NCBI GenBank assembly: GCA_003598085.1
Contig: QZKU01000037.1
Coordinates: 1-16,583, forward strand
Source: Candidatus Abyssobacteria bacterium SURF_5
Lineage (GTDB): Bacteria; Abyssobacteria; SURF-5
DNA length: 16,583 nucleotides
Direction of reading: 5' to 3'
Shown here: positions 398-15,429 of the stretch, piece by piece
Layout: each line of letters starts with the position of its first letter
Numbering within the stretch: position 1 is the first letter of the stretch
Notes under the pieces: model-generated
Told to the model about the DNA's origin: nothing
Databases searched by the model: none
What the model saw: only the letters and a program-made list of their open reading frames with translations
Translations under genes and position numbers: made by a program

Positions 398-2836
398 ATG
401 AAAGCTGTCGGCCGCACAACTCCGGTAGTACTACTCAGTCTTCTTCTGGTTCTTTTTTCGTCTCGATTCGCAGGCGCCTATGACGGGTCCCTCAGCACCT
501 CCTGCGCCATTGAGGGAACAACGGCTACTGTATGCCTGGTATTGGATGTTCCTGCGGCCAGTGTGAAAGGGGTCTCCTTCAAGCTTACGGATACCCCCGA
601 CCTGCTGCATTATTCCAGCATCTCAGGCACCGCCTGCACCAGTGTGTTTCTTGTGGATGCGAATGAAAGCGACAATGTGGTGACCGGTCTGCTTGTATCT
701 CTCTCAGGTAGTTGCATCCCAGCGGGGTCATGCTGCATAGCGGAAATCACATATAATGTTGACCCCAGTATGACTCCCGAAGATGTCATTACCCTCACCA
801 TACTGGAGGCATCCGTCGCTGAATGCGCAACCGGAGCATCTCTCGATATCGAACTGATTTCCGGCGAGTGCGGATGCGCCGAACCGACCACGTACTATCG
901 CGATATGGATGAAGACACCTATGGACTAGATGCAGACTCAAAAGTGTTGTGCGCTCCCGAACCTCCCTATACAGCTTTGGTTGGAGGAGATTGTGACGAC
1001 GGAGATGCGCTTCAGCATCCTGGAGCTGTTGAGGTTTGTAACCTAGAAGACGATGATTGCGACTTATTAACTGACGAACCTGGAGCGCAGGGCTGTTCCA
1101 CATATTTTCGAGATGAAGACGACGATGGATATGGCGTGGATGCCGATAGTCAGTGCCTTTGCGCCGCAACGGACCCTTACACCGCAACCATAGCGGGCGA
1201 TTGTGACGATGGGAATCCCGCTCGAAATCCAGGCGCAACAGAAATATGTACTGGAGGTATTGATGAGGATTGTGATGGATTAGTCGACGGGGCGGATACA
1301 GAAGATTGTGGCAGCTCCGCCTGCTGGACAGAAATCTGGACCCAAATCCATGACAGCGCGAATGGTGATGACACGACCATGGCCACCGCAATCGATAGTC
1401 AGGGAAACATAATCGCGGCGGGAACGGTCATGGGCCTGGTGGATCATGGCGAGAACGCATATCTGGTCAAGTATGACCCCGATGGGAATCTCCTTTGGAC
1501 TCGCGAGGTCGACAGCGGCATAATCAAGATCGGCGGCACCATATACGGCGACGATAGCTTTGTAGACGTGTGCGTGGACAGCCACGACAATATCATTGCC
1601 GTTGGCGGAATCGGCGAGAACTTCCAGACAACCACTCCCCCGCGCGCAAAGTCGATGCTGATGAGAAAATACGCCCCTGATGGCACTTTCCTTCTGGAGA
1701 AGCGCTATTTTGAGTATGGCGGAGCGTGGGCCACGGGTTGCGCCGTCGACGGAGCAGACAACATCTATGTGACCGGAAATGTACTGACGGATTGGACTCC
1801 ACACGCGTGGCAGTGGGCGACTCTTAAATACGACAGCAATTTCAATTTGCTGCTCGGACCCATTTATTATAACTACAGCACGTCTCAATATTATCCCGAT
1901 CATTCTCACGGTATAGCCGTAGACAGCGCGGGAAACATGATCGTAGTCGGCTGCCGCGGAGTCAGCGGCTGCGAGGGTTGCGAGGATTATGACCTCGACT
2001 GGCACATACGCAAATATGCGCCCTCGGGCGTACTACTGTGGTCGGATACTCAGAGTGGACCGGCCCTCCTGGTGGATTTTGCCTGGGATGTGGATATCGA
2101 TAGCAACGATGACATCATAGTCGCGGGCACAACTAACAAAGGAACCGATAACGACGTCTATTCGGATTACGATTGGCGCGTGATCAAGTATTCGAAAGAC
2201 GGCGCAGTCCTGTGGACATACCTGTTGGATCCCTCCTTTACGGAAGAGAGCTATGACGTAGCGGTTGATGTGGATGACAACGCCTTAGTTGCGGGCTACA
2301 TAAAAGACGCCGCTGAGATTGCGCATTGGCATCTCAAAAAGCTGGAAGGCGTCAGAGGCAACGAATTGTGTGCGGAGACGTGGAATGGCTCCTTGGAACA
2401 TGAGGTAATCAGGGGCGTATCCTTCAGGGACAACACGATTGCTCTCGGAGGCAACTTCCACAATGGGCTGGATTACGATATGCGCACGAAGAAGCTTGAG
2501 ACCGCATGCCAGCCCTTATCGCAGATCAATTTGTTGAGTCCCGCAAACGGTTCCGTACATTTGTACCCGCCGAGTTTCTGCTGGACTCCGGACGGTACAT
2601 GCGATAGAGGCTTTGCCGTCGATTTCAGCGCATCTCCGGGGTTCAAGAATTTCTGGTCCACGTATGATAATCTGCACATGATCATTGCAGATGAATGTTG
2701 GCCGATGCCTATGACCTATTGGAACAAGATACCAGCGGGAAGTATGATCTTCTGGCGGGTCCGCGGTGCGGATGTGGATCTGGTTCCGCTTGCTCCGGTT
2801 CTCAGTCAAGAAATCTGGTCAATACAAAAGCAGTGA
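398..2836 (+). CDS. Secreted protein with MopE-type metal-binding motifs and a beta-propeller
   Basis: An 812-residue exported protein. Residues 1-27 form a signal peptide (basic start, leucine-rich core, AGA before Tyr28). Residues 28-157 are a Cys-containing beta-rich region resembling a cohesin-like or Ig-like sandwich (low certainty). Two MopE-type motifs follow at about 166-233 and 236-304, each with an acidic Y-x-D-x-D-x-D-x-Y-G-like segment, then a GDCDDG...HPGA/NPGA...C segment, probably binding Ca or another metal. Residues 329-685 contain seven repeats of the form A-V-D-x-x-x-N-I-I-V-A-G (329, 390, 447, 505, 563, 619, 671), spaced 52-61 residues apart and typical of SBBP/NHL-like propellers; I infer seven blades. 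Residues 709-812 look like an FnIII-type domain (SPANG, then FWRVRG). ATG at 398 follows AAGGAG with 8 bases spacing. No sorting tail is visible. Likely a surface or extracellular binding protein; the ligand is unknown. Confidence 0.88.
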   Translation: MKAVGRTTPVVLLSLLLVLFSSRFAGAYDGSLSTSCAIEGTTATVCLVLDVPAASVKGVSFKLTDTPDLLHYSSISGTACTSVFLVDANESDNVVTGLLVSLSGSCIPAGSCCIAEITYNVDPSMTPEDVITLTILEASVAECATGASLDIELISGECGCAEPTTYYRDMDEDTYGLDADSKVLCAPEPPYTALVGGDCDDGDALQHPGAVEVCNLEDDDCDLLTDEPGAQGCSTYFRDEDDDGYGVDADSQCLCAATDPYTATIAGDCDDGNPARNPGATEICTGGIDEDCDGLVDGADTEDCGSSACWTEIWTQIHDSANGDDTTMATAIDSQGNIIAAGTVMGLVDHGENAYLVKYDPDGNLLWTREVDSGIIKIGGTIYGDDSFVDVCVDSHDNIIAVGGIGENFQTTTPPRAKSMLMRKYAPDGTFLLEKRYFEYGGAWATGCAVDGADNIYVTGNVLTDWTPHAWQWATLKYDSNFNLLLGPIYYNYSTSQYYPDHSHGIAVDSAGNMIVVGCRGVSGCEGCEDYDLDWHIRKYAPSGVLLWSDTQSGPALLVDFAWDVDIDSNDDIIVAGTTNKGTDNDVYSDYDWRVIKYSKDGAVLWTYLLDPSFTEESYDVAVDVDDNALVAGYIKDAAEIAHWHLKKLEGVRGNELCAETWNGSLEHEVIRGVSFRDNTIALGGNFHNGLDYDMRTKKLETACQPLSQINLLSPANGSVHLYPPSFCWTPDGTCDRGFAVDFSASPGFKNFWSTYDNLHMIIADECWPMPMTYWNKIPAGSMIFWRVRGADVDLVPLAPVLSQEIWSIQKQ

Positions 2837-2873: not shown

Positions 2874-2900
2874 GGGGAGGGAAACTAGCTTTCCCTCCCC
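2874..2900. terminator. Strong hairpin between convergent genes, possible bidirectional terminator
   Basis: GGGGAGGGAAA (2874-2884) and TTTCCCTCCCC (2890-2900) form a perfect 11-bp stem around the five-base loop CTAGC. The hairpin lies 37 bases after the stop of the + strand propeller gene and overlaps the last codons and TAG stop (2887-2885) of the minus-strand RDD gene. Neither side has a clean T-run, so intrinsic termination is plausible but not certain. It could instead stabilise the 3' ends of both transcripts. Confidence 0.6.
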
Positions 2901-3658
2901 CGCTCTTTGAAGAGCGAGTCGACGGCGTTGCGGACGTATTGCTCGTCGGTGAGGCCGAACGTCGCCTCGTCGGGAAACTTGACGAGCGATTTGATGTAGG
3001 CAGCGATATCTTTGAAGAGCTCGAGCCGGGAGCCAGACTCGAGACTTTCACGCCGCTGCACCGCCTGAAGAGCCAGAGCCGTGAACTCGGGAGGAGCGTG
3101 CTGGCGGAGCCGCGCCACCAGGTGCGGATATTCGCGAAACGAATTGTATTTCTCGGAGAGCAACCCGCCAAAGTCGTACTTCAGATCGGGCCGCTTTCGG
3201 ATGACCACGGTACTCGCGGCGATATCTCCCAAACGCTGTGATCGGGGCGTCACGACGGAGGCAGTCCCTCCGATCAGATAGAAAACCGGCAGCGCATCCA
3301 CGAACCGGAGCAGGTTGCGGATCGCGATCTGCGAGAATTTCAGGCGCAGGCCATCCTCGTCCACCACTCTCAGCCCCAGCAATCGTTTCCCGAGTGTCTG
3401 TCCGCGCCAGTACCATTCCAGGATGATGCTGTAGCCGATCGAGACGAGGAAGTACAGCAGAATAATGACCGCCGTTGCGAAGTCGCGACTGATGATGTTC
3501 AGAGAGTAGAGAAGCTGCGTGATGACCGACGTGATGACGATGATGCATCCGAGGTCGATGATCCACGCGAAGAAACGGGTCACCGGCCCCGCAAGGAGCA
3601 GCGAAAACGAGATGCCCTCGGACGTCCTGATGACTAGAGCATTGGTTCGTCTGAACAT
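2885..3658 (-). CDS. RDD family membrane protein with cytoplasmic C-terminal extension
   Basis: A 257-residue RDD protein, last gene of the operon. The RDD signature is visible: Arg28 and Asp35 in the first helix (GPVTRFFAWIID), the G-x-T-x-G-K-R-L-L-G-L-R-V loop near 86-98, and a closing Q-R-L-G-D segment near 141-145. Three membrane segments lie at about 33-50, 62-82 and 115-135. Residues 155-257 are a charged soluble tail, longer than in minimal RDD proteins. Known RDD proteins are small membrane proteins, some implicated in transport or ion homeostasis; the role here is unknown. ATG at 3658 follows GAGG with 8 bases spacing. The gene begins 10 bases after the SpoIIM-family gene stops. Its own stop codon lies inside the 2874-2900 hairpin. 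Confidence 0.88.
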   Translation of the reverse strand: MFRRTNALVIRTSEGISFSLLLAGPVTRFFAWIIDLGCIIVITSVITQLLYSLNIISRDFATAVIILLYFLVSIGYSIILEWYWRGQTLGKRLLGLRVVDEDGLRLKFSQIAIRNLLRFVDALPVFYLIGGTASVVTPRSQRLGDIAASTVVIRKRPDLKYDFGGLLSEKYNSFREYPHLVARLRQHAPPEFTALALQAVQRRESLESGSRLELFKDIAAYIKSLVKFPDEATFGLTDEQYVRNAVDSLFKERGRES

Positions 3659-3668
3659 GCGTCAAGCC

Positions 3669-4682
3669 TCATCGATCAATTTCGGCGGGCGCCACTCTTT
3701 TTCTGCCCGACCACATCAGATAAACGGTCAACAGAATCAATTCGAGCAATCCGAACGTGGTTTTTAGCGAGTAGGGGATGACCGGCTCGTGATACTGCGA
3801 GAAGAAGGCTTCGACCAGTCCCGCCCACACGAGTAACGCGGCCACTCCGCAGATGAGGGTTACGAGGTCGCCAGATATCTGACGCAGTCGCGCCTTCAAA
3901 GAGATCGGCGTCCCCCATCCGATGAGCGCTTTTCCCAGCACGAGGCCGGCCTGTCCCGCGATCAGGATTGCCGGAATCTCGATTGCGCCGTGCGGCAGGA
4001 GCCAGCCGGCAAGGAAGCGTACCTCTCCCGCCAGAACGTAGTCGCAAACGACCGCCCCGAGGATCGTGCCGTTGTAGAACAACATGATGATGGTGCCGAT
4101 TCCCCATGTCATCCCGAGCGCCATCGTAAAAATCGAAACCCTTGTATTATGAGTCATCAAGAAAGCCGAAAACGTGCCTTTTCTTCCTTCAAGATGATCC
4201 ACCTCGCGCGACTCCTCATAGGCGACACGTTGTGAAGGGTCTCCCTGCAGGTGTGAGAACGGCATCAATACATCCTTCGAATCGGGATCGAGAGACAGCG
4301 CGAACCCTCCAAAACTTGCGCCTGCAAGAGTAATGAGAACGGCCAGCGCGAAAGCCATCGCATGTTTTCGGAAAACCTGCGGAAAAGTTTGAAAGAACCA
4401 CGTTCGGACGGAGAAGCGGACGCCCCTGTCGCGGGTTTCATGAATTTCCGCATAGGCTCGCGAGACCAACGATTCCAGATAGCGGTGAGTTCCAGGTTCG
4501 GACGGAAACGCGGCGAGCCTCACCAGATCGCTTGAGACGCGCTGGTAAAGATAATGAAACCGTTTCGCTTCCTCGAGACTCAATGTGCGTTCGACACGCG
4601 TTTCGAGCTCCGTAAGGAGTTTCTCCAGTTCCTTCCAGTACCGCTCTTCTGAAATGAGAAATCGCTGCAGGTCGACTATCAC
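3669..4682 (-). CDS. SpoIIM/DUF95-family integral membrane protein
   Basis: A 337-residue protein of the stage II sporulation protein M (DUF95) superfamily. The N-terminal ~100 residues are soluble and helical, with E-R-Y-W and R-F-x-x-L-Y-x-R patterns. A membrane helix (about 105-125) is followed by a polar loop. The conserved core then reads N-T-R-V-S-I-F, M-T-W-G-I-G-T, F-Y-N-G-T-I-L-G, and the family hallmark L-P-H-G-A-I-E-I-P-A. Two further membrane segments precede the basic C-terminus. I chose the GTG at 4682 because it overlaps the DUF58 stop (GTGA) and has GAAGG 8 bases upstream; the longer ATG at 4733 would run 55 bases into DUF58. There is no sign of sporulation here: this family is commonly encoded next to MoxR/DUF58/RDD genes in non-sporeformers and is probably the membrane core of that module. 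Confidence 0.88.
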   Translation of the reverse strand: MIVDLQRFLISEERYWKELEKLLTELETRVERTLSLEEAKRFHYLYQRVSSDLVRLAAFPSEPGTHRYLESLVSRAYAEIHETRDRGVRFSVRTWFFQTFPQVFRKHAMAFALAVLITLAGASFGGFALSLDPDSKDVLMPFSHLQGDPSQRVAYEESREVDHLEGRKGTFSAFLMTHNTRVSIFTMALGMTWGIGTIIMLFYNGTILGAVVCDYVLAGEVRFLAGWLLPHGAIEIPAILIAGQAGLVLGKALIGWGTPISLKARLRQISGDLVTLICGVAALLVWAGLVEAFFSQYHEPVIPYSLKTTFGLLELILLTVYLMWSGRKRVAPAEIDR

Positions 4683-6034
4683 AGGAGTTGCCTTCGTTTC
4701 ACATTGATGTATTGCGAAACCAGATGACTGCACATCGTCTCATTGTCCAACAGATTCATCGCGACACCGCGGCGCTTCAACACCTGCTCCAATTCCCGCA
4801 GTTGCTGAAACTGCAGGTGACCGCCCAATCGCCGGTAGAGATCATCCGCCTCCCGGACGGCCTCGCCGGAAAATACGGGCGCCAGCACGGGCGTTTTCAG
4901 CATATTTACCAGGACGAGATGATGCCGCGTGAGCACATCCAGATTCTGGACGAAAGTCTCCGCGAGCACCGGATCGTCGAGATTGGTCAGGAAAATGAGC
5001 AGGGCGCGGCGCCGGAGGCGGAGGCGGATAAACGAGTTCAGCTCGTTGAAGTCCGGGTTCACCATTTTCGGCTGGAGCGAGTAAAGCGCGTCGCGACACG
5101 CCGCATAATGAGCTTTTCCGTTCCGGGCGCGCACGAAGGAGTGCACCTTGTCGTGAAATGTCAGCAGCCCGAACAAGTCGCCCTGCTTCTCGGCCACCAG
5201 CGCCAGGACCAACGCTGCGGTAATGAATCGCTCTAGTTGAAGAACGGTCGGGGGTGATTCGGGCGATCCATTCGACTGCGTCTGGATTTCGCGCGAACTG
5301 AGGCGCGATGCATCCAGCACAACATATATCTCTTGAGTCCGCTCGATCTGAAAAATCTTGGTGACGGGATGACTTCTCTTTGCCGTCGCTTTCCAATGGA
5401 TATCTTCGTAACTGTCGCCCGGAATGTAATCCCGAAGCTTCTCGAATTCCTTTCCCTTTCCGACCTGGCGCTGGGCGTGCAGGCCAAACATACCCCTGTT
5501 CAGAAAAAGCGCGGCCAGACTCTTCTGTTCCTTATGAATATTTGGATAAACACGGACCTCGGCCTCCACCTGAAATGTCTTGCGGAAAGCCCAGAACCCG
5601 ATAGGTGATCCGGTTTCCAGATGGACGGCCTGAATCGCATATGTCCCTCTTCTCGAGGGCGTACAGGGGATGGCGACTTCATAGGCCCTATTTTCTTTGG
5701 AAAGGGCGGTAGTGAATTCTTCGACCGGCAACTTGAATTCAGCCGGCGCCCCAATTCCGATCCGCAGCCTGCGATTTGAAGGTTGTTTTGTTTCCAATTT
5801 CAGAAGAAGCAAACCTTCCTTATTTTCGGTTATGCGGATTACTTCCGGCAAGTGGACTTCGATATTATCGAGTCGTTTCCGGGCAGAGAGGGCGTCCGCT
5901 ATCGCGAGAATGAGGAAGCCGCCTATGATGATTTCGGCCGCAAGCAATGTTGACGGCTGGATGGCGGCCACAAACGAAAAGGGAACCACGAGACAGGCGA
6001 CCCAGAACAGTAATCGGTATTGAGGCGCGATCAT
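4679..6034 (-). CDS. DUF58 (VWA-like) protein, MoxR partner
   Basis: A 451-residue DUF58 protein. Two hydrophobic segments at about 7-24 and 30-48 anchor it, followed by an immunoglobulin-like beta region (about 55-165). The DUF58 signature spans about 197-219 (E-F-x-x-L-R-D-Y-x-x-G-D-x-x-x-x-I-H-W-K-A-T-A). A VWA-like domain starts at VVLDAS. The MIDAS-like site is Asp241-x-Ser243-x-Leu245-Ser246, so the third canonical residue (Ser of DxSxS) is Leu and the serine is displaced by one. DUF58 proteins are usually encoded directly after a MoxR ATPase and are thought to link it to client proteins at the membrane. The ATG (6034) overlaps the MoxR stop by four bases (ATGA) with no clear Shine-Dalgarno, suggesting translational coupling. 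The same overlap recurs at its 3' end with the SpoIIM-family gene. Confidence 0.92.
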   Translation of the reverse strand: MIAPQYRLLFWVACLVVPFSFVAAIQPSTLLAAEIIIGGFLILAIADALSARKRLDNIEVHLPEVIRITENKEGLLLLKLETKQPSNRRLRIGIGAPAEFKLPVEEFTTALSKENRAYEVAIPCTPSRRGTYAIQAVHLETGSPIGFWAFRKTFQVEAEVRVYPNIHKEQKSLAALFLNRGMFGLHAQRQVGKGKEFEKLRDYIPGDSYEDIHWKATAKRSHPVTKIFQIERTQEIYVVLDASRLSSREIQTQSNGSPESPPTVLQLERFITAALVLALVAEKQGDLFGLLTFHDKVHSFVRARNGKAHYAACRDALYSLQPKMVNPDFNELNSFIRLRLRRRALLIFLTNLDDPVLAETFVQNLDVLTRHHLVLVNMLKTPVLAPVFSGEAVREADDLYRRLGGHLQFQQLRELEQVLKRRGVAMNLLDNETMCSHLVSQYINVKRRQLL

Positions 6035-7005
6035 CGGGGGACGTTCACTTTCTGGAGAATTCGTTCGACGACTTCGGCGACCGCCAATCCTTCAATTTCA
6101 TATTCGGGGCGCAGGATGATTCGATGTTCCAGAACGGGCAGCGCCATGGTCTTCACATCGTCGGGCGTAACGTAGTCTCTTCCCGAGATTGCAGCCAGCA
6201 TCCTGGCCGAAAGCAGGAGCGCCTGAGTGCCGCGGGGGCCTGCGCCGACGAGAACACTATCTTCGATGCGGGTTTTACGAATAATCTCGACGATATATTG
6301 GAGCAGCTCATCACGCACCAGGATGTATTCGCTTATCCTGCGCAACTGCTGCAAGTCGTCCGAGTTGATTACGGCTTTCACCTCGCCCCTGGCAAGGGTT
6401 TCCTCCGGCGAGGAGTCTTTGAGCATTCGCTTCGCCAGCTCGAGTTCTTCGGCCTGGTCGGGACACGCCATCGAGATCTTCAGCATAAACCTGTCTTTTT
6501 GCGCCTCGGGCAGCGGATACGTCCCTTCGAACTCGATAGGATTCTGGGTCGCAAAAACCGTGAAATTGGGTGAGAGCAGGTGGGTTTCTCGATCAATGGT
6601 CACCCGCCGCTCCTGCATCGCCTGCAGGAGGGCGGATTGTGTCTTTGCCGGCGCGCGATTGATTTCATCGGCAAGAAGGAACGTAGTGAAGACCGGTCCT
6701 TTCACCAGGACGAATTCGTTGGCTTTCAAATTAAAGACGTTGGTCCCGATGATATCCGAGGGCATCAGGTCGGGCGTAAACTGGATGCGCGAGAACTCGC
6801 AGCCGAGCACGCAGGCGAGGGTGCGGACAAGCAGGGTTTTTGCCACCCCCGGCACTCCCTCAAGGAGGGCGTGCTGTCCGGTGAAGATAGCGATAAGGGC
6901 CTTATCGACAACTTCCTGGTGGCCAATGATAACTTTCGCAACCTCCTGGCGCGCTCGGGTCAGCACATCAGTCAGGAACGCGATGCTTCGTCCGTCCGTT
7001 TTCAA
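6031..7005 (-). CDS. moxR: MoxR-family AAA+ ATPase
   Basis: A 324-residue MoxR ATPase of normal length for the family. Visible motifs: Walker A GVPGVAKT (50-57), Walker B LLADEINRAP (110-119, with Asp113-Glu114), sensor 1 in FATQNP (Asn155), the arginine-finger region EAQKDRFMLK (Arg172), and sensor 2 in the AGPRGTQALLL segment towards the C-terminus. MoxR proteins couple ATP hydrolysis to maturation or assembly of protein complexes, typically with a VWA-domain partner; DUF58, the next gene, fits that part. The start is TTG at 7005: it reads TTG-AAA-ACG and has AAGGAG with 7 bases spacing (7018-7013), partly inside the stop region of DUF4350. Four bases separate it from the DUF4350 stop. All catalytic motifs appear intact. 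Confidence 0.96.
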   Translation of the reverse strand: MKTDGRSIAFLTDVLTRARQEVAKVIIGHQEVVDKALIAIFTGQHALLEGVPGVAKTLLVRTLACVLGCEFSRIQFTPDLMPSDIIGTNVFNLKANEFVLVKGPVFTTFLLADEINRAPAKTQSALLQAMQERRVTIDRETHLLSPNFTVFATQNPIEFEGTYPLPEAQKDRFMLKISMACPDQAEELELAKRMLKDSSPEETLARGEVKAVINSDDLQQLRRISEYILVRDELLQYIVEIIRKTRIEDSVLVGAGPRGTQALLLSARMLAAISGRDYVTPDDVKTMALPVLEHRIILRPEYEIEGLAVAEVVERILQKVNVPR

Positions 7006-7009
7006 TTTT

Positions 7010-8284
7010 TCACTCCTTCTCCGCCAATACAGCGGAAATCATTTGATAGGCTTCGACCGGGTTGCGCCGCCTCGCAGGAGATGCCATCTCCTGCTCGAGA
7101 ATTTCGCGCACCCGCTTGCGCTTTCGTTCATCGATGAGTCCCGGAGAACGCTCCCATTCCTCGACGCATACCTGCAATATCTTTTTCGCTGGAATGCTGC
7201 GCCGCAGCAAATTGACCAGTCCCGCTGCAGAGTCCTTGCCGCGCCGGCTCATTTGTTCGGCAGGCGTCCCGTGTTTCGGGGTCAGGCTGAATGCGTTTTT
7301 CCAGACGAACAGGAGCGCGAGCCCGATCAAAGCCGTCAGCGGCCGGTCCAACCGATAGCTGCGAACCAGCGTCATGATTCCCTTATGCTCCTGAATCCCG
7401 AAATGACTCTCATCAAAGATGACGGTCGAGGAAGGTCCCACCAGCCAGGCGATGAGGCCGGTATGTCTTTCCCGGCGCATCGCTTCATTGCTGAGGAGAT
7501 ACGAATCGCTGCACAGAACGATCGTTCCTCGAATCCATTGGCGTTCTACAAGGACGGGAAGCCCGTTTCGGGCATACAACACTTTCCATGGCTCAGATAA
7601 CTGTGTGAAGTACAGAGCCGAATACCAGGGCAGCATCTCGGGCCAGTCGGCCGGTCCGTTCTGTTTCAGCGCCGTCATTTCGAGATAATCCTCGTTTTCA
7701 GACTCCTTTGGCATCAAGGTTGAGAACTTGAATCCCCACCGATTTTCGATCGAAACCATGCGGACGAACCACGGCTCTTCCGCCGGGTCCACGCCTTCAT
7801 CTTCATCCTCAGAAGATTCCTCTTTCTTCTCAGACTTCTCTTTGGAATGTTCCTCCTGCGATTCATTTATTGACCCGCCGCTCTCTTCGCCTCTTTCACC
7901 GTTACCGCTCGCTTCTGCTATTTCCTCGGTTATCGGGAAGAAGGTAAGAATCAGCCGTCCGCCGTCGCCCACAAAATCCTCGATGGCCTTGATCACGTAT
8001 TCCGGATCATCGGACAGATTGGCGCCGCAAATGAACAAGGTTTTGCCTTTCCCGCCGCCCAGTTGCTCGATTGGGCTCATGTTTTGCTGGACCGACACGC
8101 CCTCCAATGCGGCCATCGCCTTGTACAGCGCCCGCGTTCCGAGCGGATCGCTCCTAAGCGTGGAATACGGCGGGTACATGTTTCCTTGCTCATACACGAG
8201 ATCGAAGAGACGGTACAAGCCCCAGGCGAACATGACAATGATCGCCGCAAAAAGAAGGGGAGCCGATTTAGTTAGCGCCTTCAT
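7010..8284 (-). CDS. DUF4350 membrane-anchored protein with acidic linker
   Basis: A 424-residue protein. A membrane helix at about 9-28 precedes a DUF4350 domain (from about 38): S-D-P-x-G-T-R-A-L-Y near 45-54, an I-C-G-A-N-L strand, and the family motif V-I-F-D-E-S-H-F-G near 288-296. A second membrane helix lies at about 314-330. A basic C-terminal cytoplasmic tail of about 95 residues follows. Residues 127-171 form a very acidic Glu/Ser/Lys-rich linker that splits the domain and is unlikely to be structured. DUF4350 proteins lie beside MoxR/DUF58 genes in many bacteria; the fold is reminiscent of a GATase-like/sugar-binding alpha-beta domain, and no reaction is known. ATG at 8284 overlaps the end of the preceding gene by 17 bases with no strong Shine-Dalgarno, consistent with coupled translation. 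Confidence 0.85.
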   Translation of the reverse strand: MKALTKSAPLLFAAIIVMFAWGLYRLFDLVYEQGNMYPPYSTLRSDPLGTRALYKAMAALEGVSVQQNMSPIEQLGGGKGKTLFICGANLSDDPEYVIKAIEDFVGDGGRLILTFFPITEEIAEASGNGERGEESGGSINESQEEHSKEKSEKKEESSEDEDEGVDPAEEPWFVRMVSIENRWGFKFSTLMPKESENEDYLEMTALKQNGPADWPEMLPWYSALYFTQLSEPWKVLYARNGLPVLVERQWIRGTIVLCSDSYLLSNEAMRRERHTGLIAWLVGPSSTVIFDESHFGIQEHKGIMTLVRSYRLDRPLTALIGLALLFVWKNAFSLTPKHGTPAEQMSRRGKDSAAGLVNLLRRSIPAKKILQVCVEEWERSPGLIDERKRKRVREILEQEMASPARRRNPVEAYQMISAVLAEKE

Positions 8285-10088
8285 ACGTTTTCAACTTTTG
8301 TTGGTTCGCGAGGAGATATTCCACCAGATCGCGTCGCGCTTCGTAATCGCCGTACCAGATTGATTCGTACACGGTAGCGCTTTGAGAAAAGACATCTATG
8401 AGCTCCGGATACGCATGGGCGCGCCGTTCGAGCTCCCGTTTATAGTCGCGATTGGATTTGAACAAAGCGATATAAATGAAGTTGGCTCTGGCGAGCAGCG
8501 CAAGGGTGGCAAGAAAAACCGCCCGCAGCGCCAGCCGAAATTCGCCTTGCTCGAGAAGTTCTGCCGCCAGCGCAAGCCAGCCGTCTTCCGGCAGTTCGGC
8601 GGCGCTCGTGGTTTCCTTCTCGATATCAGGTCTGGCCCGCACGACAATGGCGTCGACTTGAAGAGGCTGCCGGAAGCGGTTCTTCCACATTCGCCATATC
8701 ATCACGCCGACGACAACGAAGAGCAGGATTGCAAGGCCGTATAAAATCGTTCGCAAGACACCGCTGATTGTTTCGAGACCTCTTCTATCCCTGTCGAATT
8801 CAGGCGCTCGTTTGCTGAGCCAATCGATCAAAGCCTCAATCCACCGGGTGAGCGGCTGGGCCCTGCGCATGATAGCCTCTCCCCAATCGGCCAGGGTCTC
8901 GGCAATGTGGCGGAAAAATGAGGCCGTTGCGCCACCCTCTTTTTCAGCCGGCTTCTCTCTGGGCATTCGCCACACGTAAAAGCGGGACTCGAGTTCCCGG
9001 TCCAAGGCTTGATCCAAATCTGAAGGCGAAATGGTCAAGCGGCGAGTATCGACTTCATGCTGCGTCCTGTCCTGCGCCCGGGCCTCACGAGGAACGGCGA
9101 GACCGGAGTTGAGAACACATATTGCAACAAGACCGACGGCGGCTGCCTTTCTCGAAATCCATTTCAGATCAACCCGAAGGTCCTCGCCCGTCTTCTGGGA
9201 GTCTAGATAAAAGCATCTCAAAACGTATGCCGCCTTTGCCAGCGGGTCCATGCAAAGGAAAGTGAGCCCGCAGACTGCGGCAAAGAACGTGGTATTGAAC
9301 ATTCCTCCAAAAGTCAAAGTGAAGCGCGTCGATATTCCGGTGAGCATCTGAAAAAGGCCGGGGAACAAAAGAATGGCTGAGGCGATGTTTGCGGCTATCA
9401 ATACGCCAAATGGGCTGAGAGGAACCAGCGCCAGCAGGAGCACCCCCATGTACAAGCTTAAGAAAACCTGACTCCATGCCGCGCTGACGGCAACGATTAT
9501 CGGGCTTACGACCAGGAAGAATGCGGCGGCAGAGATCAGAAGAAAGGGGCTCAGCGCCCAGATGACGAGAAAATTCTGTTTCTGCCAGGGACGGGCCAGA
9601 CGATCGGCCTTCTTGTACAAATCGATTATCTCGACGCCTTTGCCGTCCTCGAGCACGGTCATGTTCTGGTAGAGCGCATAAGCCCAACCGAATGGCACGG
9701 CGGCCAGAAACGCCAGCGGCAGGATGAAAAAGCCGGTGGACTGAACGATAGTCTGGCGGATGATCGCGCGAGCTATCATTCGGAATGTCCATCTTTGGGG
9801 GGCGGAATTGCAGACGTGTTCGAGCAGCCGGCGCGCATACATTGCGTGACAGCATTTCATCCAGACGAAGAGAAGAGTCATGAGAAAAGCGCCCCTTGCC
9901 GCATACCGATAAGCGAAGGCGCTCCTGCTCATGTCGCCCCAGAAATACAGCAGGCCCAGCACAAAGGGAACCGTTCCCAGGCAGTACAGCGCAAGCGCAT
10001 GAATAGAGGAGGTGCGAACCAGATGAAACGCTTCCTCGATAATTTCGAGCGCCCCTTTCGGGGCAGGTTCTTTGCGGTCAATCTTCAT
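8268..10088 (-). CDS. Multi-TM protein with C-terminal DUF4129 domain
   Basis: A 606-residue membrane protein with two halves. Residues 1-300 hold about six hydrophobic segments (near 33-50, 66-80, 117-138, 173-200, 207-248, 263-280), with a P-W-Q-K-Q-N-F-L-V-I-W segment resembling uncharacterised multi-TM 'membrane domain' proteins. Residues 309-339 look like an internal signal peptide (basic KWISRK, hydrophobic core, then ARA-Q). Residues 340-440 are a probable periplasmic segment, a TM helix lies at about 447-467, and the cytoplasmic DUF4129 domain covers about 502-606 (A-E-x-L-x-x-G-x-x-x-x-A-L-R near the start, then R-D-Y-x-R-E-L). DUF4129 proteins are standard members of MoxR/DUF58 loci, sometimes linked to transglutaminase-like proteins; function unknown. 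The ATG overlaps the preceding B-box gene stop by four bases (ATGA). Confidence 0.82.
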   Translation of the reverse strand: MKIDRKEPAPKGALEIIEEAFHLVRTSSIHALALYCLGTVPFVLGLLYFWGDMSRSAFAYRYAARGAFLMTLLFVWMKCCHAMYARRLLEHVCNSAPQRWTFRMIARAIIRQTIVQSTGFFILPLAFLAAVPFGWAYALYQNMTVLEDGKGVEIIDLYKKADRLARPWQKQNFLVIWALSPFLLISAAAFFLVVSPIIVAVSAAWSQVFLSLYMGVLLLALVPLSPFGVLIAANIASAILLFPGLFQMLTGISTRFTLTFGGMFNTTFFAAVCGLTFLCMDPLAKAAYVLRCFYLDSQKTGEDLRVDLKWISRKAAAVGLVAICVLNSGLAVPREARAQDRTQHEVDTRRLTISPSDLDQALDRELESRFYVWRMPREKPAEKEGGATASFFRHIAETLADWGEAIMRRAQPLTRWIEALIDWLSKRAPEFDRDRRGLETISGVLRTILYGLAILLFVVVGVMIWRMWKNRFRQPLQVDAIVVRARPDIEKETTSAAELPEDGWLALAAELLEQGEFRLALRAVFLATLALLARANFIYIALFKSNRDYKRELERRAHAYPELIDVFSQSATVYESIWYGDYEARRDLVEYLLANQQKLKTYEGAN

Positions 10089-10420
10089 GAGTCGAATAGC
10101 TCACTCCAATAGCTTTGCCGCCAGATATTGCCTTCATGAAACGAGGATGGCAACGCAATCAGACCGCGCCCCAGGAGGTAAAAGAATATCCAGATTATCA
10201 AGAAGGAAGAACACCACAGAACTGTTCGTGACAGGGAAGCCAGTCTCGCTTTGCGCTTCTTCTTTTTGCCCGTGATCTTTGCGAGGCAGGGCGCGCAGAT
10301 CATCCTGTCTTCGTGTTCGGTAGCGCATTCCCGGCAATAGTAGCGATGGCATTCGAGGCATTGGGCCACGGCTTCGCGCCAGGCGTGATTGAAACAGCGT
10401 TGGCGGGAAAGATCGTGCAT
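10085..10420 (-). CDS. Small B-box zinc-finger membrane protein
   Basis: A 111-residue protein. An N-terminal B-box-type zinc module uses Cys9, His12, Cys21, Cys24, Cys29, Cys32, Cys42 and Cys45 (His36 is also available), enough to bind two zinc ions. A very basic stretch follows (KKKKRK, 52-57). One membrane helix lies at about 68-90, with a short aromatic C-terminal tail outside. The zinc module therefore probably faces the cytoplasm (positive-inside rule). The ligand spacing is identical to that in the 195-residue protein at 11506-12093. ATG at 10420 directly follows the TAG stop of the preceding gene with no intergenic base, and the stop overlaps the DUF4129 start. It probably acts as a protein-protein adaptor for the membrane complex; that is inference. 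Confidence 0.82.
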   Translation of the reverse strand: MHDLSRQRCFNHAWREAVAQCLECHRYYCRECATEHEDRMICAPCLAKITGKKKKRKARLASLSRTVLWCSSFLIIWIFFYLLGRGLIALPSSFHEGNIWRQSYWSELFDS

Positions 10421-11509
10421 CTACAGTCCCTTGTCGGTTGCGGTCACGGCGGCTGTCGCGTAGCGAGCTACCCGGTTTCTCATCTTGTGCCGGAAAATAA
10501 GAATCAGGCCCACAACGGCCAAAAGAGATTGAGCTACCCCGGTCGCGATGCAGTAGCCGTCGTAAATCGATCCCTCCAACTGGAATTCAAGCGGTGAGCG
10601 TGGAGGCGCCTCCATATTTTGAATCATGTATATGAAGCCATAGATCGAGCCAAAGAAAAAGCTGCAGACCGCCACGGCCAGAGTCAACCAGGTGATGCTC
10701 TTGACTGATCGTGGAAGATCACTGTGACTTTGCCTCCTGAAAGCGAAGATCAGAACGAGGATCAGCCCCAAGAAGAGCAGCATATCCAGAAAATTCTTTG
10801 AGATGCTCTTGTGGAAGATCTCGATGAAATCCGAGAATGCGCTCAGCAGGAGCCAGCCGTAAAGAAGGATATGCACCTGTCCATCCTCGTGGCGTGTCTC
10901 CCGTTCCCGTTCGGCCGGAGCGTCTTGCGGGAGTGCGTGAGCCGACGCCTGCACGAGCACAGGCTGGTCCGGCAATACATCGATTTCCTCTTTCGTTTCC
11001 GTCAGGGAAGCCTGGGCCGACTCGATCAGCGGTTTCAGGATCGCAATCGCTTTTCGCGCGGTCCGTATTCTGCCGAGGCACGGCAATTCTTCCGCTTGGA
11101 CGGCGGTATAAAGGCGGCATTTGCAGGTGGGTCCCAGGAATGTGTTGAGGAGAATCGAAACCAGGAAGGCCAGAAGGAGGGCGGCCTCGAAACCGAGGAA
11201 GAGGAAGAACGGCTTCATGTTTGGCGATTTCCATATCCAGTAAGGATAGGCCGTAGCAATAAAAATGCAAGCCCATGAAGCGGCAAGCAGCAGATTCTTG
11301 TTTCTTCGGCCGGCGGTCCGGCTGATTACGAGAGCCTGGATATCCTTCAGGTAGAACCTTTTGTACTGCTCCGTAAAGCGCCTTGAACGCACATCGAGAA
11401 CGTGGTCTGCGCCCAGCCAAAGGCTGTGCATGCTGTATTCGAGAAAACGGCGCTGCTGCGTAAACATGTTTCCGGGCAGCCGCCGATAGATTTTCTGTTT
11501 TCGCTTCAT
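10421..11509 (-). CDS. Six-TM membrane protein with PH-like N-terminal region, function unknown
   Basis: A 362-residue protein I do not recognise as a named family. The N-terminal ~65 residues (W-L-G-A-D-H-V-L-D-V..., Y-L-K-D-I-Q-A-L) resemble a bacterial PH-like domain. Hydrophobic segments follow at about 72-92 and 99-122. A cytoplasmic region (128-210) includes a Cys pair at 129/131 and Cys144, and an acidic, Ala/Gln-rich part at 170-209. Four further helices lie at about 212-232, 241-257, 271-294 and 318-339, and the tail is basic. I chose the ATG at 11509, which overlaps the upstream TGA (ATGA) as at other junctions in this operon; a longer reading from 11686 would lie on the coding sequence of the preceding gene. 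Its position between two B-box membrane proteins suggests the three form one subcomplex. Confidence 0.75.
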   Translation of the reverse strand: MKRKQKIYRRLPGNMFTQQRRFLEYSMHSLWLGADHVLDVRSRRFTEQYKRFYLKDIQALVISRTAGRRNKNLLLAASWACIFIATAYPYWIWKSPNMKPFFLFLGFEAALLLAFLVSILLNTFLGPTCKCRLYTAVQAEELPCLGRIRTARKAIAILKPLIESAQASLTETKEEIDVLPDQPVLVQASAHALPQDAPAERERETRHEDGQVHILLYGWLLLSAFSDFIEIFHKSISKNFLDMLLFLGLILVLIFAFRRQSHSDLPRSVKSITWLTLAVAVCSFFFGSIYGFIYMIQNMEAPPRSPLEFQLEGSIYDGYCIATGVAQSLLAVVGLILIFRHKMRNRVARYATAAVTATDKGL

Positions 11510-12093
11510 TGCATTATGTTCATGAAAAGCAGGCCGCCAAGATAGCCCCAGACCGCCAATTGCCCAAGGGAGATAACAATCGCCAGCACTGAACGCCACC
11601 GCCCGGGATAGACAATGCTCCGGGGCGATTTCCAATGCTTGACTGCGATAAAGATCGAGGCAGTAGCGGTAATGAATGTGCCCCAAATGAAAAGAACGAG
11701 CGGCAACACGGCCAGAAAAAGGGCGATGTCATCATAACGGACGCGCTCGTTCTGCAGATGCTCGAATTTTCCTTTTACCGCGCCCCTCTCGATGCAGGTG
11801 GAACACAGGTGCTGGCCCTTCAATTCGATCGCACACAAGGAACAGAGGAAGCGACCGCAGCTCTCGCATGCCACGGTCGCTTTCTTAGCGGAATGATAGA
11901 AGCAACTGCTTTCATCGTCAACCAGCAGTTTTTCGCCGGACAGACCTGGCGCGGCTTTTCTGACCAGTGCCGGGAAACTCGCAACCTCGAGATAGGCGCC
12001 GCAGCCGGGACAGTTCCCGGTCTGCGCCGGCTCCGCCAGCGGAAGCGAAACCGGTTTCCTGCATTTTCCGCAGTCAAATTGAAATATCTTCAT
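11506..12093 (-). CDS. Zinc-ribbon plus B-box membrane protein
   Basis: A 195-residue protein. An N-terminal zinc ribbon uses Cys8/Cys11 and Cys28/Cys31 (C-x2-C ... C-P-G-C). A B-box-like module follows: Cys64, His67, Cys76, Cys79, Cys84, Cys87, Cys97, Cys100. Two or three membrane segments lie at about 122-150 and 167-191. B-boxes are two-zinc protein-interaction modules; bacterial examples are often fused to membrane helices as here. The module has exactly the ligand spacing of the 111-residue protein two genes downstream. ATG at 12093 lies six bases after the stop of the GYF_2-RDD gene, with only a weak Shine-Dalgarno (GTTGAG). The 3' end overlaps the next ATG by four bases. Probably a cytoplasm-facing adaptor in the membrane. 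Confidence 0.82.
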   Translation of the reverse strand: MKIFQFDCGKCRKPVSLPLAEPAQTGNCPGCGAYLEVASFPALVRKAAPGLSGEKLLVDDESSCFYHSAKKATVACESCGRFLCSLCAIELKGQHLCSTCIERGAVKGKFEHLQNERVRYDDIALFLAVLPLVLFIWGTFITATASIFIAVKHWKSPRSIVYPGRWRSVLAIVISLGQLAVWGYLGGLLFMNIMQ

Positions 12094-12099
12094 CTCAAC

Positions 12100-12843
12100 T
12101 TATTTACGAATGACCCGGGTGCTGCAGATACGATCGTGCAACGCCTGTTTTTCGCTGTCGAATGCCGCCATGATGTATCCGATAAGCAGGATCATCGCGC
12201 TCAGGATTTCGGCGAAATACCTGCCGCACGCGCGCCAATAGGAGACTTTTCCGCCGTCCGGAGTCACGATTTTCAGACCGCAGGCCATTTTGCCCGGCGT
12301 CGCCGCAAATTTGCCGACAAAATACGTCGCATAAAATACCGCCACGCCGATTTGCGCGATCATCATAAGAACCGACCCGATGAAGAAACCCGCCGACGGC
12401 ATGGCTCCAGGCTGCGGCGGAGTCACCATAAAGCCGAAGCTCAACTGGATAACGGCATTCACAACCCCAAGAATGAACCAATCTACGAATTTCGCCGCGA
12501 ACCGAATCCAGAAGCCGGCATAGCGCAGAGTAGCAGGCAGGCGCGCCCCCTCCTGCAGCCGTTGAAAAAAGATCGGCTTGCACGCGGCGCACACCCGCGA
12601 ACCGGAGTACGCAACCATTTCATCGGCAGGAAAAGACTTGCCGCACTCGACACAGGGGAAGACCCGCTGTTCGGTCAGGGCAACCGTCTGATTCTGCACG
12701 TCGCCGTATGGCCGCCAGTCCGCCATCCCCCTCCGCCAAACGAGGTCTTTCGAGGTGATCACGCCGGTGGTTACCATGCTTTGTAACTCTTCGTCACTTA
12801 CCGGGCCCGCTTTCTGCCCATTCTCCACATAGTACCAGTCCAA
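12100..12843 (-). CDS. GYF_2 - zinc ribbon - RDD membrane protein
   Basis: A 247-residue first gene of the operon. Residues 1-50 are a GYF_2 (DUF4339) domain: W-Y-Y-V-E-N-G-Q-K-x-G-P-V-S at the start and V-W-R-x-G-M-x-D-W near 35-43, the usual proline-rich-peptide-binding module. Residues 64-88 form a zinc ribbon (Cys64, Cys67, Cys85, Cys88). Residues 107-247 are an RDD domain with Arg114 and Asp121 in its first helix, G-K-M-A-C-G-L-K-I-V near 184-193, H-D-R-I-C near 236-240, and membrane segments at about 118-140, 152-175 and 210-228. The start is TTG (12843): AAGGAGG lies 7 bases upstream (12857-12851) and an in-frame TAA just before it excludes a longer reading. This is the strongest Shine-Dalgarno in the operon, as expected for its first gene. 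Confidence 0.88.
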   Translation of the reverse strand: MDWYYVENGQKAGPVSDEELQSMVTTGVITSKDLVWRRGMADWRPYGDVQNQTVALTEQRVFPCVECGKSFPADEMVAYSGSRVCAACKPIFFQRLQEGARLPATLRYAGFWIRFAAKFVDWFILGVVNAVIQLSFGFMVTPPQPGAMPSAGFFIGSVLMMIAQIGVAVFYATYFVGKFAATPGKMACGLKIVTPDGGKVSYWRACGRYFAEILSAMILLIGYIMAAFDSEKQALHDRICSTRVIRK

Positions 12844-13164: not shown

Positions 13165-13632
13165 TCAAAAATAGATGCGGAAGCCCAAGCCATACTGATC
13201 AAAACCCAGAGATTTATACAGGCGGTGAGCCTCGGTGCGCCGTTTGTCAGATGAGAGCCCTATCTTATAGCAGCCACTTTGCCGGGCGACCCGGATAAGG
13301 TGTTCTACCAGCTTCCGGCCGATCCCCCTCTGACGGGAGTGGCCGGCCACGACGAGGTTTTCCACAATTGCCCACGGCAAAGCGTGATGCGAAAGGTTGG
13401 GCGCGATCAGCAGGTCTACGGCTCCGACAACTTGGTTGTTAGCAACTGCGACAAAAAGCTTACGATTGGGATCGGCTTTGATGTGATCGAAGGACTTTTG
13501 GTAATCAGGGGAAGGAGCATTTGGGTCGGATTCCGCGCGGCTTGTGGTTAAAGTAAGAGCTTTCATCAACTCCACGATAGCCGGCACATCCGCCTTTACC
13601 GCCTCTCGGATGACGACTTCACCCCCCTCCAT
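13165..13632 (-). CDS. GNAT family N-acetyltransferase
   Basis: A 155-residue single-domain GNAT protein, which transfers an acetyl group from acetyl-CoA to an amine. It opens with V-I-R-E-A-V-K-A-D at about 7-15. The beta-4 strand A-I-V-E-N-L-V-V (88-95) leads into the acetyl-CoA pyrophosphate loop Q-R-G-I-G-R (101-106). The C-terminal A-H-R-L-Y-K-S-L-G-F-D (135-145) is the usual motif B region. The substrate cannot be told from sequence; small-molecule amines or a protein N-terminus are both possible. ATG at 13632 has GAAGGAG with about 7 bases spacing (13646-13640). It has its own promoter (13654-13683) and diverges from the small membrane peptide gene, so it is probably a single-gene unit. 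Confidence 0.92.
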   Translation of the reverse strand: MEGGEVVIREAVKADVPAIVELMKALTLTTSRAESDPNAPSPDYQKSFDHIKADPNRKLFVAVANNQVVGAVDLLIAPNLSHHALPWAIVENLVVAGHSRQRGIGRKLVEHLIRVARQSGCYKIGLSSDKRRTEAHRLYKSLGFDQYGLGFRIYF

Positions 13633-13653: not shown

Positions 13654-13683
13654 ATTATATGCGGGGAAGAGCGTGCATGTCAA
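13654..13683 (-). promoter_or_regulatory. Consensus sigma70 promoter for the GNAT gene
   Basis: On the minus strand TTGACA (13683-13678) and TATAAT (13659-13654) are both perfect consensus hexamers, separated by 18 bases. Transcription would start around 13647, immediately before the Shine-Dalgarno, giving a leader of only about 15 bases. This suggests strong, probably constitutive expression. Confidence 0.75.
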
Positions 13684-13920: not shown

Positions 13921-13989
13921 GCGTGGGCCGACCCCGGGCCGGGATCGTCTTCCCTCTTGACCGGCCGCAAAAGTGAAAAGGAAATTTTT

Positions 13990-14628
13990 TTGCCGGAACA
14001 TCCTGTGACTTTTTCCGCCGGAAATCTTAGGTTGGAAGGAATGTATCTGCGCGCGCGATCCCCCAAGCCGCAGCCGGCGGTCATCTGTCATCCGCACCCC
14101 GCATACGGCGGAACGATGGATAATAATGTCGTCATGGCGGCGGCGGGAGCCTTGCAGGAAACCGGCCATTCCACGTTGCGCTTCAATTTCCGCGGAGTCG
14201 GCGGCAGCGAGGGGCAATATGGCGGAGGAACGGGCGAAATCGAAGATGTGCAGGCGGCGATAGGGTTTGTGCTGGACGAAGAAGGAGATGTGCCGGTTGT
14301 TCTTGTTGGTTACTCATTCGGCGCGTGGGTCACGGCAAAAATGCTGGAAGGCGATGATTCAGTAGCACATGTTATCCTGATCGCGCCGCCGACCGCGATG
14401 TTCGACCTCTCCCCTCTCCTGAACGATGGGCGGGAACGCTCTCGGCACATTATCGTAGGCGAGCGCGACCAGTTCTGCGACCGCGAGTCGCTCCAGCAGA
14501 TATACGATCGGCTGCCCGAGCCGAAATCGATGCGTGTTATCCCGCGCGCGGATCACTTCTTTTTTATGCACGAAGACAGCCTGATCGAGGCGATAAAAGA
14601 GGCTGTCGCCGATCATTCACCGCTTTGA
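13990..14628 (+). CDS. Alpha/beta hydrolase (COG2945-like)
   Basis: A 212-residue alpha/beta hydrolase. The H-P-H-P-x-Y-G-G-x-M-D-N segment (34-45) after beta-3 is characteristic of the COG2945-type 'alpha/beta superfamily hydrolase' group. The nucleophile elbow is G-Y-S-F-G (Ser109), and the acid and base are predicted as Asp160 (V-G-E-R-D) and His189 (A-D-H-F). No signal peptide is visible, so it is cytoplasmic. The substrate is probably an ester or thioester, not identifiable further. I prefer TTG at 13990 because AAGGA lies 7 bases upstream (13978-13982); a longer TTG start at 13957 has no Shine-Dalgarno. The stop is 15 bases before the crotonase gene, so the two are probably co-transcribed. 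Confidence 0.88.
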   Translation: MPEHPVTFSAGNLRLEGMYLRARSPKPQPAVICHPHPAYGGTMDNNVVMAAAGALQETGHSTLRFNFRGVGGSEGQYGGGTGEIEDVQAAIGFVLDEEGDVPVVLVGYSFGAWVTAKMLEGDDSVAHVILIAPPTAMFDLSPLLNDGRERSRHIIVGERDQFCDRESLQQIYDRLPEPKSMRVIPRADHFFFMHEDSLIEAIKEAVADHSPL

Positions 14629-14643: not shown

Positions 14644-15429
14644 GTGGCTGATTCACCGCGTTTCGAAACGCTTTTGTGGCGCCGGGACGGGCCGATACTG
14701 ACGCTCACGCTGAACCGGCCGGATCGTCTTAACGCATTCAATGCGGAAATGTTTCGAGACCTCGCCCAAGCCGTGCAGATCATTTCAGGTCAAACGGATA
14801 TTGGCGTAGTCGTACTCACCGGTGCCGGTCGGGCGTTCTGCTCAGGCGCCGACTTGAACAATGTCAGCCAGTACCATTCAGACGCGGAGGGCGATTCGCT
14901 TGCGCAAGGAATCCGGCAGGCGCAGAAAGTTTTCGACGCCGTCGAGGGGATTCCGCAACCCGTTATTGCGGCCATGAACGGACATGCGGTCGGGGCGGGC
15001 CTTCAAGTGGCGCTCGCATGCGATTTCCGCATTGCCGCGCATGGCACAAAATTGGGGTTGTCTGATGTCAAGATCGGGATAGTGCCGGCCCTGGGGGCAA
15101 CCATCCGGCTGCCGCGCCTGATCGGAATCGCGAAGACAAAGGAGCTGATTCTAACGGGGGATCTGATTGACGCCGACGAGGCGCATCGGATCGGGATGGT
15201 CAATCAAGTCGTCGAGAAGGAGCTTCTTGACCAGACGGTGAGGGAGTTGACTGAGAAGCTGGCTTCGCGCGCTCCGCTGGCCATAGCCGCAGCCAAGCGG
15301 CTCCTGAACGAATCGGCGCCGCTCGAACAAGTCGCTTTGGCTCAATCGCGCCTTATTAAATCTGCGGACGCGCTGGAAGGCATTTCCGCTTTTTTCCAAA
15401 AAAGAAAACCCCATTTCACCGGTTCGTGA
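14644..15429 (+). CDS. Crotonase (enoyl-CoA hydratase/isomerase) family protein
   Basis: A 261-residue crotonase-fold protein of usual length. The CoA/oxyanion-hole segments are present: L-N-R-P-D-R-L-N-A-F (23-32), G-A-G-R-A-F-C-S-G-A-D-L (60-71) and N-G-H-A-V-G-A-G-L (112-120). By alignment with rat mitochondrial enoyl-CoA hydratase, catalytic Glu144 corresponds to Gln121 and Glu164 to Asp141. Both canonical hydratase acids are thus replaced, so this is probably an isomerase-like, hydrolase-like or non-hydratase member acting on an acyl-CoA. GTG at 14644 has GGAGG 5 bases upstream (14634-14638). It follows the alpha/beta hydrolase by 15 bases. A neighbouring hydrolase would suit a degradation or thioester pathway, but nothing else in the window specifies it. 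Confidence 0.9.
   Translation: MADSPRFETLLWRRDGPILTLTLNRPDRLNAFNAEMFRDLAQAVQIISGQTDIGVVVLTGAGRAFCSGADLNNVSQYHSDAEGDSLAQGIRQAQKVFDAVEGIPQPVIAAMNGHAVGAGLQVALACDFRIAAHGTKLGLSDVKIGIVPALGATIRLPRLIGIAKTKELILTGDLIDADEAHRIGMVNQVVEKELLDQTVRELTEKLASRAPLAIAAAKRLLNESAPLEQVALAQSRLIKSADALEGISAFFQKRKPHFTGS

Follow-up and report, generated by a model that had tools for sequence, protein, structure and literature searches.

The window analysed here is a stretch of 16,583 nucleotides that makes up an entire 16.6-kb contig (QZKU01000037.1) of Candidatus Abyssobacteria bacterium SURF_5, from an assembly of 5.1 Mb in 145 contigs. Positions 2885-12843 of the window hold ten consecutive minus-strand genes that include a MoxR-type AAA+ ATPase, a DUF58 protein and several membrane proteins with zinc fingers. 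In the order of transcription, with TM for transmembrane segment, the genes are:

Gene 1, 12100..12843, minus strand: 247 amino acids (aa), TTG start; GYF_2 + C4 zinc ribbon (CxxCG...CxxCKPxF) + RDD membrane domain
Gene 2, 11506..12093, minus strand: 195 aa; LysW-like zinc ribbon + B-box-type zinc finger + short hairpin + TM
Gene 3, 10421..11509, minus strand: 362 aa; predicted PH-like domain split by a TM hairpin, then a four-helix membrane part
Gene 4, 10085..10420, minus strand: 111 aa; B-box-type zinc finger + one TM
Gene 5, 8268..10088, minus strand: 606 aa; multi-TM N-terminal part + C-terminal DUF4129
Gene 6, 7010..8284, minus strand: 424 aa; DUF4350 with TMs on both sides; PF14258, 2.6e-12
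Gene 7, 6031..7005, minus strand: 324 aa; MoxR AAA+ ATPase; PF07726 (AAA_3), 6e-62, and PF17863 (AAA_lid_2), 1e-21
Gene 8, 4679..6034, minus strand: 451 aa; DUF58, vWA-type partner, N-terminal TM hairpin; PF01882, 2.3e-18
Gene 9, 3669..4682, minus strand: SpoIIM/DUF95 membrane protein; PF01944, 9.4e-34
Gene 10, 2885..3658, minus strand: 257 aa; RDD membrane protein with a C-terminal extension; PF06271, 3.2e-22

The layout had been described in a first-pass annotation of this DNA, and all nine of its junction values were reproduced exactly (+6, -4, 0, -4, -17, +4, -4, -4 and +10 bases from gene 1 to gene 10), taking 11509 as the start of gene 3 and a position of about 4682 as that of gene 9. 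The six families DUF4129, DUF4350, MoxR, DUF58, SpoIIM and RDD all lie within the single gene run 5-10, which is the known core of such loci and has already been partly studied.

Conservation and linkage of genes 1-4

The search for further loci among named genomes used gene 2 as its sole query, so that MoxR was unable to bias the choice. It recovered 20 loci, on contigs of metagenome-assembled genomes whose organism titles are those deposited by the submitters: Poribacteria, Verrucomicrobia (several orders), Acidobacteria (Bryobacter), Hydrogenedentes, Lindowbacteria and Deltaproteobacteria. Genes 1 and 3 flank gene 2 in 20/20 loci, genes 4 onward continue in identical order and on the same strand in every sufficiently long one, and gene 4 adjoins gene 5 wherever a locus is long enough to show both. 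The same gene order recurs in other lineages at 54-81% MoxR identity; the nearest relative bearing the module (G001, locus L053) is titled Candidatus Poribacteria. The window's own phylum seems to account for just three of the genomes compared, as relatedness drops straight from the same family to the same domain. Additionally, 386 diverse genomes were surveyed. Full-length gene 2 occurs in five of them at E <= 1e-64, and all five carry the module; the B-box proteins that follow, at 1e-11, are unrelated. Full-length gene 4 was detected in the same five genomes, with a weaker one in G029, and the long form of gene 5 is confined to those five and G029. Generic B-box matches (E 1e-5 to 1e-15) had no MoxR core beside them at the eight loci checked, and we therefore regard them as other proteins.

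Over all surveys, a hand tally gave 52 distinct gene-2 loci, 44 of them informative and 8 cut by contig ends. Gene 2 is joined to genes 4-5 in 38 of the 44 (31 of these with MoxR in view), while the remaining six (L171, L174, L176, L180, L184, L188) are solo triads of genes 1-2-3. The first-pass annotation would have been contradicted by upstream genes that occur mostly without MoxR and DUF58 in related genomes; the 38 joined loci show that this is not the case, and every genome with a solo triad retains gene 5 elsewhere. Indeed, G530, G563 and G564 have an intact gene 4-10 block with ample flanking sequence and no adjoining triad (L189-L191), and keep the triad at another place. G561, G565 and G566 seem to have a similar arrangement on shorter contigs, and contig ends obscure that of G550. 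The triad has been relocated in G530, G563 and G564, a linkage without adjacency. Given that the solo-triad genomes keep gene 5 or the gene 4-10 block, the triad stays with the core even when it is not its neighbour. In locus L187 (G562), a second gene 1-2-3 triad in tandem lies immediately upstream of a full ten-gene module.

Presence and absence were compared over the 68 genomes of the phylum of G278 and G141; two of its genomes, G575 and G531, correspond to loci that bear the titles Hydrogenedentota/Hydrogenedentes. Gene 2 was found in 31 genomes, gene 5 in 31 and both in 30, an agreement of 66/68 (Fisher p = 5e-17, uncorrected for the kinship of the genomes). The two discordant genomes reflect contig ends: G594 has a cut gene 2 at the edge, and in G560 the contig stops after gene 3. 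A chance neighbourhood of genes 1-4 was rejected on this co-occurrence.

The four upstream genes do not behave alike. In the phylum of G029, which we take to be Myxococcota from a Deltaproteobacteria title, 62 of 146 genomes carry a single copy of gene 4. Fifteen of 16 loci retrieved consist of gene 4 followed by DUF4129, DUF4350, MoxR and DUF58, without genes 1-3, and the sixteenth (L143, from the genome of L060) contains the full set of ten. Some other core loci lack gene 4 as well as the triad. Because the Myxococcota combine gene 4 and the core in the absence of genes 1-3, gene 4 is to be counted with the core and the triad as an add-on; in terms of gene content, the addition to the core is 3 + 1 rather than four, with genes 1-3 as a separable triad. 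The first-pass annotation had regarded the four genes as one dedicated accessory set. Their dedication to the MoxR module is supported, but they are not a single unit.

The encoded proteins and the neighbouring genes

The gene 1 product of the window matches GYF_2 (3e-18) and RDD (1e-25) in Pfam, and its GYF domain matches the solved GYF domain of GltJ (7z3c). The four cysteines of its zinc ribbon and the CKP motif are invariant across 21 members. L055 and L070 lack the GYF domain, and three Verrucomicrobia loci (L064, L066, L072) show no conservation of the RDD region. Hence the zinc ribbon is the constant part of the protein, and the GYF and RDD parts are replaceable. Since those three loci have no RDD domain in gene 1, the earlier idea of RDD proteins bracketing the operon as its first and last genes describes an incidental feature. 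A longer, different membrane region replaces the RDD domain in the same three proteins, which retain the GYF domain and the zinc ribbon.

Zinc fingers are conserved in genes 2 and 4 too. All twelve ligands of gene 2 (four ribbon cysteines and eight B-box ligands) are invariant in 21 members, of which 15 are recognised by the zf-B_box model. The structural model of gene 2 gave no PDB match at E <= 0.001 in Foldseek; it resembles the LysW zinc ribbon 5eio (probability 0.92, 36 columns, root-mean-square deviation 1.4), and its B-box part had no separate structural match. In gene 4 the eight zinc ligands are invariant (17 members, 14-15 of them recognised by B-box models), and one TM is present. 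Both families follow the pattern C-x2-H ... C-x2-C ... C-x2-C ... with a final pair C-x2-C. The window proteins score under the Pfam gathering cut-offs (18.4 bits for gene 2 and 19.0 for gene 4, against 24.1 and 27; E-values 0.0024 and 0.0015), and for this reason we call the fingers B-box-type and not members of the B-box family. Positive charges lie on the finger side of the gene 4 TM, and by the positive-inside rule the finger is therefore predicted to be cytosolic. The window genome has nine places that match the gene-4 B-box profile, two of them in the operon; small B-box proteins seem, from such matches, to be a theme of this organism's lineage.

Gene 3 had been annotated as a six-TM protein. 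It is a membrane protein, but its AlphaFold model (predicted local distance difference test score, pLDDT, 82) has five strands ahead of a TM hairpin, then two further strands and a helix, and after these a four-helix C-terminal part. The strands span residues 15-64 and 128-141, the hairpin 67-124 and the helix 148-167, giving the seven-stranded barrel with a C-terminal helix cap that characterises PH domains. No PDB match at E <= 0.001 was obtained for this model with Foldseek, and the PH reading rests on a second-look structural alignment together with strand order: NF1 2d4q aligned with Z 8.9 (95 aligned residues, 3.1 A), Rtt106 3tvv with Z 8.5 and Avo1 3ulc with Z 8.3 (79 aligned, 2.3 A). 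Moreover, bPH_2 is weakly recognised in two members, and in four Verrucomicrobia loci (L064, L066, L071, L072) gene 3 is reduced to the PH and hairpin part. On these grounds gene 3 is predicted to encode a PH-like domain into which a membrane hairpin is inserted, an arrangement that would be unusual among proteins.

As for the core, DUF4129 in gene 5 scores 8e-4, under the curated cut-off for the window protein, and is recognised in 19/19 family members. A 5-7 TM gene lies upstream of several short DUF4129 genes, and we considered whether gene 5 could be a fusion of such a gene with DUF4129. This was rejected because a comparison of profiles found no homology; the likeness to the gene 5 N-terminus is one of position only. 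DUF4350, encoded by gene 6, is described as flavodoxin-like and GldG-related in the parts of PMC5898192 that concern it. The Walker A (GVPGVAKT) and Walker B (LLADEIN) motifs of the gene 7 ATPase are intact and conserved throughout the members. The open reading frame of gene 8 overlaps that of gene 7 by 4 bases and encodes a DUF58 protein, a family that we take to have a vWA-type fold. Its stretch DASRLSAR, which resembles a metal-ion-dependent adhesion site (MIDAS), is conserved; compared with the canonical DxSxS, the first D and S are present and the fifth position is L (DASRL).

The nearest gene upstream of the operon is GNAT-like (13165-13632). A perfect promoter match, TTGACA-18-TATAAT, lies upstream of it at 13654-13683 on the minus strand, and read-through from this gene into gene 1 is possible. 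On the strand opposite to the operon, positions 398-2836 (+) encode a secreted-looking protein of 812 aa with Asp/Cys-rich repeats (CDDGDALQHPGAVEVCNLEDDDCD) similar to MopE-type metal-binding repeats. Elsewhere the window holds an alpha/beta-hydrolase-like gene (13957-14628, +) adjoining an enoyl-CoA hydratase-like gene (14644-15429, +), and a beta-barrel-like outer membrane protein (15758-16333, -).

A candidate membrane machine and its alternatives

How might these ten proteins work together? In characterised pairs of a MoxR ring and a vWA protein, the partner inserts into the ring and relays ATP-driven changes to the target (PMC9976466). By analogy, a cytosolic ring of gene 7 could pair with the DUF58 protein of gene 8 in the manner of NorQ and NorD, and because DUF58 has an N-terminal membrane hairpin next to its vWA-type domain, the couple would be expected at the membrane. 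Genes 5, 6, 9 and 10 may form its membrane platform, of which gene 4 would be a fixed subunit. The triad would contribute cytosolic parts of three kinds, namely a zinc ribbon (often with a GYF domain), a zinc ribbon with a B-box-type finger, and a PH-like domain, so that genes 1-4 could make up a recognition layer facing the cytosol. The triad would most likely recognise either client proteins or the surface of the membrane, and hand these to the MoxR/DUF58 pair, which might then remodel an envelope assembly. A membrane machine of this kind is suggested by the MoxR-vWA mechanism, the DUF58 membrane hairpin and the proposals of secretion or remodelling made for DUF4350 and SpoIIM. In favour of a single machine are the observed gene content, order and co-occurrence, the invariant zinc ligands and the PH-like fold modelled for gene 3. 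We infer one physical complex, its cytosolic orientation, the adaptor role and the envelope target from these comparisons, and on the whole we find it probable that the ten genes encode a single membrane-bound MoxR/vWA machine with genes 1-3 as its client- or membrane-recognition triad.

Several observations weigh against this interpretation. Given that six of the 44 informative gene-2 loci are separate from the core, the triad may serve an independent function, and Myxococcota and other genomes possess the core without it. The PH match of gene 3 comes from a predicted model, with modest Z values of 8-9. Finally, the L in place of S at the third MIDAS position of the DUF58 partner makes metal-dependent client binding uncertain.

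The loci separate from the core could also mean that the triad is an inner-membrane sensor or trafficking module in its own right, useful to the same cells and usually adjacent to the core for shared expression, yet outside the complex. No core lies within about 4-12 kb of the six solo triads, G564 carries two solo copies, L187 has its tandem second triad, and the Myxococcota core does without one; all of this would be natural for a separate module. However, every genome with a solo triad has gene 5 as well, presence and absence agree in 66/68 genomes, and the order is kept across phyla, so that we regard a separate module as rather unlikely. A sharper form of the favoured interpretation, and one that does not exclude it, is that the core serves as an apparatus for secretion or membrane remodelling, with the zinc-finger proteins as its cytosolic substrate receptors. 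The relevant parts of PMC5898192 predict such a function for related archaeal loci and note that bacterial SpoIIM genes occur beside those for vWA proteins and COG0714 ATPases; nonetheless, we identified neither a secretion substrate nor an outer-membrane channel or secretion signal at the locus, and we put this version forward tentatively, as a possibility.

Two further explanations carry little weight. Tight gene packing is common in bacteria and junctions alone are weak proof, hence the four genes might be housekeeping neighbours whose promoter is shared by chance or through a long-retained ancestral order. Yet order and co-occurrence hold at the MoxR identities given above, in several phyla and after relocation, and the co-occurrence tests largely refute this very improbable account. 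Alternatively, since MoxR-vWA pairs form the core of ternary anti-phage or conflict systems (PMC7159879), the locus could be a system of that type. None of the ten proteins was matched by PADLOC, on which ground an anti-phage system was rejected; no VMAP, iSTAND, FtsH, beta-propeller third component or variable effector gene is among the ten genes, and the gene content is fixed and non-variable across phyla. We consider a defence role scarcely credible.

Relation to known MoxR systems and outlook

The core families of the window operon (MoxR, DUF58, SpoIIM, RDD and DUF4350) are shared with the mycobacterial Rv3691-Rv3695 region. In M. chelonae, the DUF58, MoxR, SpoIIM, RDD and DUF4350 genes drop together in expression, according to the part of PMC8191103 that deals with them, and none of the four zinc-finger/GYF/PH genes appears with the orthologues Rv3692-Rv3695 as listed there, a comparison made with the published description. 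The predicted archaeal complex of DUF4350 (arCOG01314), a MoxR-family ATPase and a vWA protein shares these three components with the window operon; in the sections of PMC5898192 devoted to it, archaeal DUF4350 is reported to be a large extracellular GldG-like domain, and SpoIIM/vWA/ATPase neighbourhoods are proposed for secretion or membrane remodelling. Those sections place Ig-like and S-layer proteins at the archaeal loci and do not mention B-box, GYF or PH-like partners. GltJ/AgmX of the Myxococcus gliding machinery carries a GYF domain on a membrane-associated protein, as gene 1 does. GltJ also has a zinc ribbon. Its other domains differ and it is part of the gliding complex; the likeness to gene 1 was compared for GYF only. 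We know of no membrane platform and no zinc-finger proteins in NorQ/NorD, CbbQ/CbbO or RavA/ViaA. The clients of these systems are defined enzymes. What they share with the proposed machine is a MoxR hexamer with a vWA partner that remodels a target protein (PMC9976466).

The first-pass annotation knew of no description of this gene combination. In agreement with this, we found none in the open-access literature searched for the ten-gene form, or for a core accompanied by membrane genes of the B-box, GYF or PH-like kinds, nor a paper there that links MoxR to DUF4129, to B-box, or to SpoIIM together with DUF58. The locus may, although we would not commit ourselves either way, represent an undescribed and widely distributed class of MoxR membrane machine with its own cytosolic recognition layer, in which a core-fixed B-box subunit and a mobile triad choose the clients or membrane sites at which ATP drives remodelling of the envelope. 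Natural experiments are available in the phyla that possess or lack the triad, in the genomes where it has been relocated and in the Myxococcota version with gene 4 only. The MoxR/DUF58/SpoIIM core is widespread, and its conserved, predicted cytosolic zinc-finger and PH-like partners offer a handle on what the machine recognises.

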